Assembly: GCF_020514095.1 (NCBI RefSeq)
Contig: NZ_VTKY01000004.1
Coordinates: 62,001-126,000 of the forward strand
From: Synechococcus sp. MU1643
Lineage (GTDB): Bacteria > Cyanobacteriota > Cyanobacteriia > PCC-6307 > Cyanobiaceae
Length of the DNA stretch: 64,000 bases
Direction: 5' to 3'
Shown piece after piece: positions 28,252 through 29,120 of this stretch (its first letter is position 1; each line of letters opens with the position of its first letter). Both the position numbers and the translations under genes were made by a program. Under the pieces are notes generated by a model that was not told the origin of the DNA, made no database searches, and saw nothing but the letters and a program-made list of their open reading frames with translations.

Positions 28252-28404
28252 TCAGGCCACAAGGACAAGGGCGATATTGAGAATCGCCAGCCCCACTAAG
28301 AACACCGCCGCCAACAACGCGGCTTCCGGGAAGAACTTGGCAATCACGAATCCCACCCCAAGAAACACCGAGGAGATCACGATGGCGACGAGGTCCGTTC
28401 CCAC
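28252..28404 (-). CDS. 50-residue two-span membrane protein
   Basis: From the GTG at 28402-28404 the frame encodes MGTDLVAIVISSVFLGVGFV, then IAKFFPEAALLAAVFLVGLA and a hydrophobic end. It has two membrane spans (about residues 3-20 and 27-48) split by a KFFPE turn. An in-frame ATT at 28417-28419 (giving IQSPPVGTD) is an alternative start, with a purine-rich GAGAG stretch just upstream. The regular helical-hairpin pattern is unlikely by chance. The function is unknown. Confidence 0.55.
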   Translation of the reverse strand: MGTDLVAIVISSVFLGVGFVIAKFFPEAALLAAVFLVGLAILNIALVLVA

Positions 28405-28844
28405 TGGAGGGCTTTGAATCTATCTCTCACACAATGACGAAATCCCGCTTGGATCGTGGTCAGCCATCCAGCAAGCGGCCCCCGCCAATGGCAGGGGCAA
28501 GGCCTGAAAGAAGCCTCGGCCTTCTTGGTGTAAGAGACGCTTCGATAGGTAAGGGTGGGGTGCACGTCGCGCGCGACCACCTCCCGGCAGGTGTTGTTGT
28601 GCTCGCGTCGGTAGGTCAGCTCAACGCTGGCCTTGGGTGCTGATGCCGCCGCTGCGTAGGCACCACCTCGATAAAGAAGTGCCGTCCTTGGAAGTTCCTC
28701 GAAGAAATCCAAGTCCCCGTTCCGTGGCTTGGAGCGTCTGCGCCCCCCCTCGAAAAAAAAAGGGGGGGGGGGGGACGTTCTATAGCAATGCTGAACCGCC
28801 TTTACGGGACAACCTTCACCCACGCGTTGTCGACGCGGGCACAC
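28377..28844 (-). pseudogene. DUF4278-like ORF, probably degraded
   Basis: The middle of this 155-codon frame has the DUF4278 pattern of repeated tyrosine-arginine strands: TALLYRGGAY, then VELTYRREHN and PTLTYRSVSYTKK. The N-terminal third is translated from a homopolymer tract (C13T9 on this strand) and is unlikely to be genuine. There is no ATG near the domain; an ACG (28683-28685) stands where a start would be expected. After the domain the frame reads through a bulged stem-loop (AGAAGGCC-GA-GGCTTCT) and then overlaps the start of the next small membrane gene. I conclude that this is a broken or frameshifted copy. Confidence 0.55.
28743..28774. repeat. C7 ... A9G13 homopolymer tract
   Basis: C7 (28743-28749), TCG, A9 (28753-28761) and G13 (28762-28774) follow each other. 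Seven C and seven of the G can pair into a hairpin with an A-rich loop. On the minus strand a TATAGA sequence precedes the C13 run, like a -10 element. Runs of this length are rare in such genomes and are prone to slippage and to sequencing error. Confidence 0.85.
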
Positions 28845-28856
28845 ACCGCCCCTTAA

Positions 28857-29120
28857 TCAGCACTCCTCACGGACGAGCGCACTGGCCGGCCATCCATCCA
28901 TCGACCAGATCACGTCAGAAATAGCATCGGCATTGATCCACGTGATGACACCCGTATCCACATCAGCCACCTGAAAGAGAGACGGAAGCCTGGGGTGACG
29001 CGCGCTCCCCTCACAGAAGATCACCTGCCCCATCCACCAATCCCCTTGGTCGAGCTGGTCTCCACCAACGATCACAAAGTGCCCTGGGCGGACATGGAGG
29101 AATGGAGCTTCCGCCTTCAC
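28857..29120 (-). CDS. DUF3104 family protein
   Basis: An 87-residue protein starting at GTG. It follows the pattern of DUF3104, a family found mainly in marine picocyanobacteria: FLHVRPGHFVIVGGDQLDQG (residues 7-26), DWWMGQVIFCEGSARHP, then FQVADVDTGVITWINADAIS and the end WSMDGWP. It is probably a small SH3-like barrel; the function is unknown. An in-frame stop lies five codons upstream of the GTG, which supports that start. The next 256 bases (29121-29376) hold nothing I can assign. Confidence 0.85.
   Translation of the reverse strand: MKAEAPFLHVRPGHFVIVGGDQLDQGDWWMGQVIFCEGSARHPRLPSLFQVADVDTGVITWINADAISDVIWSMDGWPASALVREEC

Follow-up and report, generated by a model that had tools for sequence, protein, structure and literature searches.

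A homopolymer-expanded P1 hairpin in a probably decaying Glutamine-II riboswitch-DUF4278 unit of Synechococcus sp. MU1643

A C7-TCG-A9-G13 tract in a 64,000-nt stretch of the Synechococcus sp. MU1643 genome (the window) corresponds, by alignment, to both arms and the loop of P1 in a Glutamine-II (type 2 glutamine, "downstream-peptide") riboswitch aptamer. We consider it very probable that this P1 belongs to a decaying Glutamine-II riboswitch-DUF4278 unit and was expanded by strand slippage. Most likely the biology is ordinary: the hairpin, unusual for its homopolymers, would belong to a decayed representative of a known riboswitch class, a relic rather than a new on/off switch.

According to the available sections of PMC6316151, the type 2 glutamine RNA class is confined to marine picocyanobacteria, where it occurs in multiple copies, mainly before DUF4278 genes, and a Prochlorococcus copy activates expression upon glutamine binding. 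The same sections describe an NtcA motif in the promoter of PMM1846, a DUF4278 gene of Prochlorococcus MED4 under a glutamine riboswitch. The available sections of PMC6698751 describe a coaxial stack of P1, the pseudoknot and P2, with glutamine bound in the groove of the pseudoknot, and propose that switching makes the ribosome binding site accessible. P1 is peripheral there, and its sequence was swapped by the authors for crystal growth. The numbering of pseudoknot and ligand-contact positions used below follows that source.

Results

The tract occupies positions 28743-28774 of the window. On the plus strand it consists of C7 (28743-28749), TCG, A9 (28753-28761) and G13 (28762-28774), and the minus strand reads C13-T9-CGA-G7. 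The tract is present in the assembly as the original prediction had described it, and the order given there, a minus-strand TATAGA (28784-28779), then ACGT, then C13T9, was also found. A listing of runs across the 64 kb showed that G13 is the longest homopolymer of any base in the window. Under a first-order Markov model built on the window's own dinucleotides, G/C runs of at least 13 are expected 0.012 times per 64 kb and 0.40 times per 2.07 Mb genome. Of 34 genomes of the genus, 17 contain G/C runs of at least 11; the longest, of 17, is in a single-contig genome. G13 alone is rare at the scale of the window and unremarkable for a genome of such composition. The tract exceeds chance because of its contrast with the orthologues, not because of the run length itself.

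An Rfam scan identified a Glutamine-II riboswitch aptamer (RF01704) at 28780-28708 on the minus strand with 50.1 bits against a gathering score of 33, which makes it a member of the family; the top Glutamine-II score in the genus was 74.7 bits. P1, the linking strand, P2 and the pseudoknot strand were all found in the window. P1 is distorted, whereas CGCAG, P2 and GGAACGGGG are unaltered. On the minus strand, C13 (28762-28774) aligns with the 5' arm of P1 in stretched form and also spans pseudoknot positions 4 to 6. T9-CGA (28750-28761) takes the place of the loop, which is enlarged compared with TTT-AGA in the two nearest relatives, and G7 (28743-28749) is the stretched 3' arm, for which the relatives have 4 to 5 G. 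The 3' part of the aptamer in the alignment (28708-28742), comprising the linking strand CGCAG, P2 and the pseudoknot strand GGAACGGGG, is identical to that of L036 and L037. ViennaRNA, whose model does not extend to pseudoknots, folded the runs as a hairpin. A C7/G7 hairpin had been guessed at originally, and the C run and G7 are indeed opposing arms of the riboswitch P1 in both the Rfam alignment and the ViennaRNA fold. A plus-strand match to MIR5743 (20.4 bits against a gathering score of 111 in Rfam) was dismissed as chance.

Pseudoknot positions 4 to 6 read UCA in the relatives and CCC in the window, so that positions 4 and 6 are changed. The window therefore does not carry the full pseudoknot CGUUC:GGAACG with U4:A37, plus A6, and the two C residues at positions 4 and 6 are possibly base-calling errors. 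Because U4:A37, like C5:G36, is a pseudoknot pair outside the set conserved at more than 97% (PMC6698751, available sections), its loss does not alone exclude membership of RF01704. The glutamine-contacting C1, G2, G18, C19, C39 and G40, as named in those sections, are all kept in the aligned window sequence, and because these bases are retained, glutamine binding by the window aptamer might survive. Nor would lengthening of P1 necessarily prevent binding by itself, since P1 is peripheral and replaceable and since long P1 stems of mixed sequence occur elsewhere in the family. When 19-49 nt were allowed between CGTTC and GCGCAG, a pattern unable to match the window because its CGTTC is altered, 25 matches were obtained in 23 of 400 genomes of the family. 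They read as mixed-sequence stems and not as homopolymers; one of them (G006) is a second upstream CGTTC, not a long P1.

We compared the window with its orthologues. A 901-base query gave matches in 30 of the 34 genus genomes and nine near-full-length places, one of which was the window itself, leaving eight orthologues (L036-L043). Three further records, from Synechococcus sp. AG-670-B23, an uncultured Synechococcus MAG and Synechococcus sp. MU1642, had a normal P1 in the scan of genome contigs; with a 15-mer share of 1.0 with L041, L042 and L037, respectively, they are not independent of these. Each of the eight orthologues carries GTA-N8-TAC and CGTTCA, then a C-rich arm with C runs 3-6 long, a short loop, a G arm and CGCAG, and in each an ATG is followed by a stop after 55 codons. 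The nearest two, L036 and L037, read CGTTCACCCC-TTT-AGA-GGGG-CGCAG, and the window reads CGT-C13-T9-CGA-G7-CGCAG. Between these relatives and the window, the P1 runs thus differ as C4 and C13, T3 and T9, and G4 and G7.

The window-only lesions extend from the promoter to the terminator. They affect the -10 element, both operator half-sites, pseudoknot positions 4 and 6, P1 (15 additional alignment columns), the start codon, the stop codon and the terminator, which has a 12-nt deletion, and several residues that are invariant or nearly so among the orthologues differ in the window. In the eight-orthologue alignment, the remnant of the ancestral -10 is CGTAAA at 28801-28806 (minus strand), where L036-L039 and L041 have TATAAA; it carries two window-only changes, at 28806 and 28805. 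The palindrome GTA-N8-TAC, which we take to be an NtcA site from its consensus, is intact in all eight orthologues. Both half-sites are altered in its remnant in the window (28782-28794, minus strand), which has also lost 1 nt and contains part of TATAGA.

The position of the tract bears on the earlier proposal that the runs act as a length-variable switch of promoter spacing or reading frame. A TATAGA before the run and an open reading frame after it had made this proposal attractive. However, TATAGA aligns with the 3' half of the palindrome (TACAGA or TACAAA in the relatives) and not with their TATAAA box, so that it corresponds to an operator half-site. The tract itself is part of the 5' leader: it follows the ancestral -10 and operator and precedes the ancestral start codon by about 55 nt, a position where neither the -35/-10 spacing nor the frame depends on its length. 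We rejected the proposal on these grounds and leave it only the slightest chance of being right.

Downstream of the aptamer, 28521-28688 (minus strand) aligns as the relic of a 55-codon DUF4278 gene. The ancestral ATG at 28686-28688 is now AGG, and no ATG, GTG or TTG stands at the expected place, in agreement with the first description of the frame as having no clear start. The stop codon has changed from TAG to AAG, and the Pfam DUF4278 score is 24.6 bits against a cut-off of 25.3. The window thus has neither the start, the stop nor the score over the cut-off that would mark a functional DUF4278 gene. Further on, the alignment places a terminator at 28479-28498 (minus strand), in which the hairpin stem is kept and the 12 nt beyond the stem, including the T-tract, are deleted. 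The upstream neighbour, a DUF3104 gene (28857-29120, minus strand, 88.7 bits), is intact and served as a control for local sequence quality and rate. In Synechococcus sp. AG-670-B23 (L041, the same as L133), the homologous DUF3104 region is out of frame with stops, and the gene looks broken.

We then counted changes on the window branch and the L037 branch with L038, L040 and L041 in turn as outgroups, with the run excluded and the gene taken as 28525-28692. For the promoter and aptamer the counts (window against L037) were 10 v 2, 11 v 2 and 11 v 2, and for the DUF4278 gene 11 v 2, 11 v 2 and 10 v 3. The flanking DUF3104 gene gave 3 v 8, 3 v 8 and 2 v 8. The sums for the unit were 21 v 4, 22 v 4 and 21 v 5, with hand-calculated chi-square values of about 11.6, 12.5 and 9.8. 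These counts indicate that substitution is faster in the riboswitch-DUF4278 unit than in its DUF3104 neighbour, a contrast that is not perfectly sharp. The acceleration is not cleanly confined to the unit, because the downstream ORF at 28252-28404 is also faster on the window branch (4 v 1, 5 v 1 and 4 v 0) and the counts for the terminator stretch are mixed (10 v 2, 5 v 3 and 2 v 6). In codons 2-62 of the ancestral frame, which run a few codons beyond the old stop, the window and L037 differ by 7 synonymous and 7 non-synonymous changes, and L036 and L037 differ in the same region by 5 synonymous changes and 1 non-synonymous change.

One part of the unit is unchanged. The 54-55 nt that begin with CGCAG and end just ahead of the start codon (28742-28689 and adjoining bases) are the same as in L036 and L037, and the lone change in 28686-28742 is the start codon itself. 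Upstream, 11 of 82 positions differ, and in the gene 10 of 164; a hand calculation from these rates predicts about 3 to 7 changes across the 54-55 nt. There may be residual constraint on the RNA between CGCAG and the start codon. Resting on this unchanged stretch is a reading in which the untouched 3' half would still serve as a glutamine-binding RNA after the loss of its gene, with the copy number of the slippery C13/G7 setting the balance between P1 and the pseudoknot; we regard it as very improbable.

It has also to be considered that the riboswitch might work and be length-variable, with slippage in P1 altering how stable P1 is relative to the pseudoknot and thereby tuning or phase-varying the response to glutamine. 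The run, which lies within the aptamer, is slippable by its length, and neither the nucleotides that contact the ligand nor the 3' half of the aptamer has changed. However, the start codon, the -10 and the operator that would have to be tuned are all gone, and none of the eight orthologues has a long homopolymer. A scan of the genome contigs for P1 with C7 or more, a pattern that does match the window, returned no stretch, although the window's own record was perhaps absent from the contigs. A length-variable riboswitch of this kind is therefore highly unlikely in our judgement.

Whether the tract is partly or wholly a sequencing or assembly artefact was assessed from other G runs of the same assembly. 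A G16 run opens contig C11, C14 stands at positions 36-49 of contig C3, and the assembly breaks at this G run. The start of C3 matches C11 save for five places beside or beyond the run, at which C3 has C (G on the opposite strand) and C11 has G or A; one of the five has been swallowed into the run of C3. The end of C3 looks like G-biased miscalling around a G run, presumably the poly-G miscalling of two-colour sequencing. On the plus strand, the two pseudoknot changes of the window copy replace T and A by G, directly downstream of or within G13. Since, like the C3 end, these are changes to G at the far end of a run, the run length of 13 and the changes at positions 4 and 6 are uncertain.

An artefact in which the G run was read past its true end and the next bases were miscalled as G would explain these features. 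It would, however, leave C7 and A9 unaccounted for. The contig crosses the tract with both flanks collinear with the relatives, the adjoining DUF3104 gene is clean, and runs of 11-17 G or C exist in single-contig genomes of the genus. The -10, operator, start and stop lesions are 8 to about 220 bases distant, and not every one of them is a change to G. We therefore consider an artefact unlikely as the explanation of the tract. The initial worry about sequencing was justified for the exact length of the G run, given the break at another G run and the G-biased mismatches there, but it does not extend to the other lesions, which are not of the G-miscall type.

The genome of Synechococcus sp. MU1643 has seven Glutamine-II matches, five of which, the window and four others, fit a strict core pattern. 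The four others keep the core, the NtcA-type palindrome and the ATG, and one of their genes is cut by a contig end. The two further copies (53.1 and 49.8 bits) fall outside the strict core pattern. The contig that contains the window (C4) ends within another DUF4278 gene with a glutamine riboswitch, a close paralogue with a normal P1, CCCC-TTTCGAT-GGGG (L025/L139).

Long runs elsewhere were surveyed in 20 sources, comprising 19 loci with G/C runs of at least 11 from 16 genus relatives and the C3 end of the window's own genome. A general poly-G element tied to the riboswitch was rejected, as only 1 of the 20 sources (L065) had a Glutamine-II aptamer, about 860 bases from the run. One locus (G008, L068 1501-1539) reads C11-GCAACAGCTGTTGC-G14, a hairpin stem that is largely homopolymer; its long arms on both sides fit a joint expansion of the arms. 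Two others (G005 and G020, L066 and L072 near 1501) have C12 or C15 in a similar context, resembling CTCA-C(n)-TTACCG-CCTA, and in L083 CTCA likewise precedes C13. Poly-C in the CTCA context is possibly a conserved element.

The palindrome upstream of the aptamer was examined across the genus. GTA-N8-TAC located 2-10 nt upstream of an aptamer gave 111 matches at 110 places in 30 of 34 genomes (examples are L093-L122 and L025), and the reversed control of the same 34 genomes gave none for the combined pattern. The Glutamine-II matches in these genomes total 181. In a set of 41 aptamer matches, drawn from 31 aptamer-search loci and 10 long-P1 loci, some of them overlapping, the palindrome was found within 70 nt in 38. 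These results indicate that most Glutamine-II aptamers of the genus have a putative NtcA-type palindrome directly upstream. Its identity as an NtcA site rests on the NtcA consensus GTA-N8-TAC and on the PMM1846 remark in the available sections of PMC6316151.

Discussion

In the relatives, the literature suggests that the leader RNA would fold into P1, a glutamine-binding pseudoknot and P2, and that high glutamine would turn on the small DUF4278 protein. A putative NtcA-type operator lies immediately upstream of the aptamer. The unit in the window appears to have lost selection and would be dead or dying, with the -10, operator, start, stop and terminator tail gone. With selection relaxed, polymerase slippage on the self-complementary hairpin has most likely taken C4, T3 and G4 to C13, T9 and G7. 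We infer the slippage, the loss of function and the order of events from the comparison with the orthologues.

The window copy resembles a Glutamine-II riboswitch (RF01704) in its match to the model, in P1, CGCAG, P2 and GGAACGGGG, in the DUF4278 frame downstream and in its picocyanobacterial host. It differs in the homopolymer P1 (C13, T9, G7), in C at positions 4 and 6 and in the loss of the start codon. With the DUF4278 proteins under glutamine riboswitches, such as PMM1846 (PMC6316151, available sections), it shares a homologous frame and a riboswitch leader. An NtcA-type palindrome is also present in the relatives of the window copy, whereas the window copy itself is without start, stop, operator and terminator tail.

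Phase variation through homopolymer tracts occurs at contingency loci, and the unit in the window is like these in having a long G/C run in its 5' region. Unlike them, it has no intact gene or promoter to switch, and its run length comes from one assembly. In titles and abstract openings of the literature on riboswitch phase variation, homopolymers and pseudogenes, no homopolymer-expanded riboswitch hairpin was reported.

These findings also call for caution, as long G runs in draft assemblies may fall inside RNA elements and distort them. Read as the decaying riboswitch-DUF4278 unit that we favour, a puzzling homopolymer would become a clear case of the death of a riboswitch-controlled gene, in which everything from promoter to terminator can be compared piece by piece with intact orthologues. 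In the genus, the palindromes before the aptamers suggest that transcriptional sensing (2-oxoglutarate through NtcA) and RNA-level sensing (glutamine) are combined on one short leader, which is directly testable.
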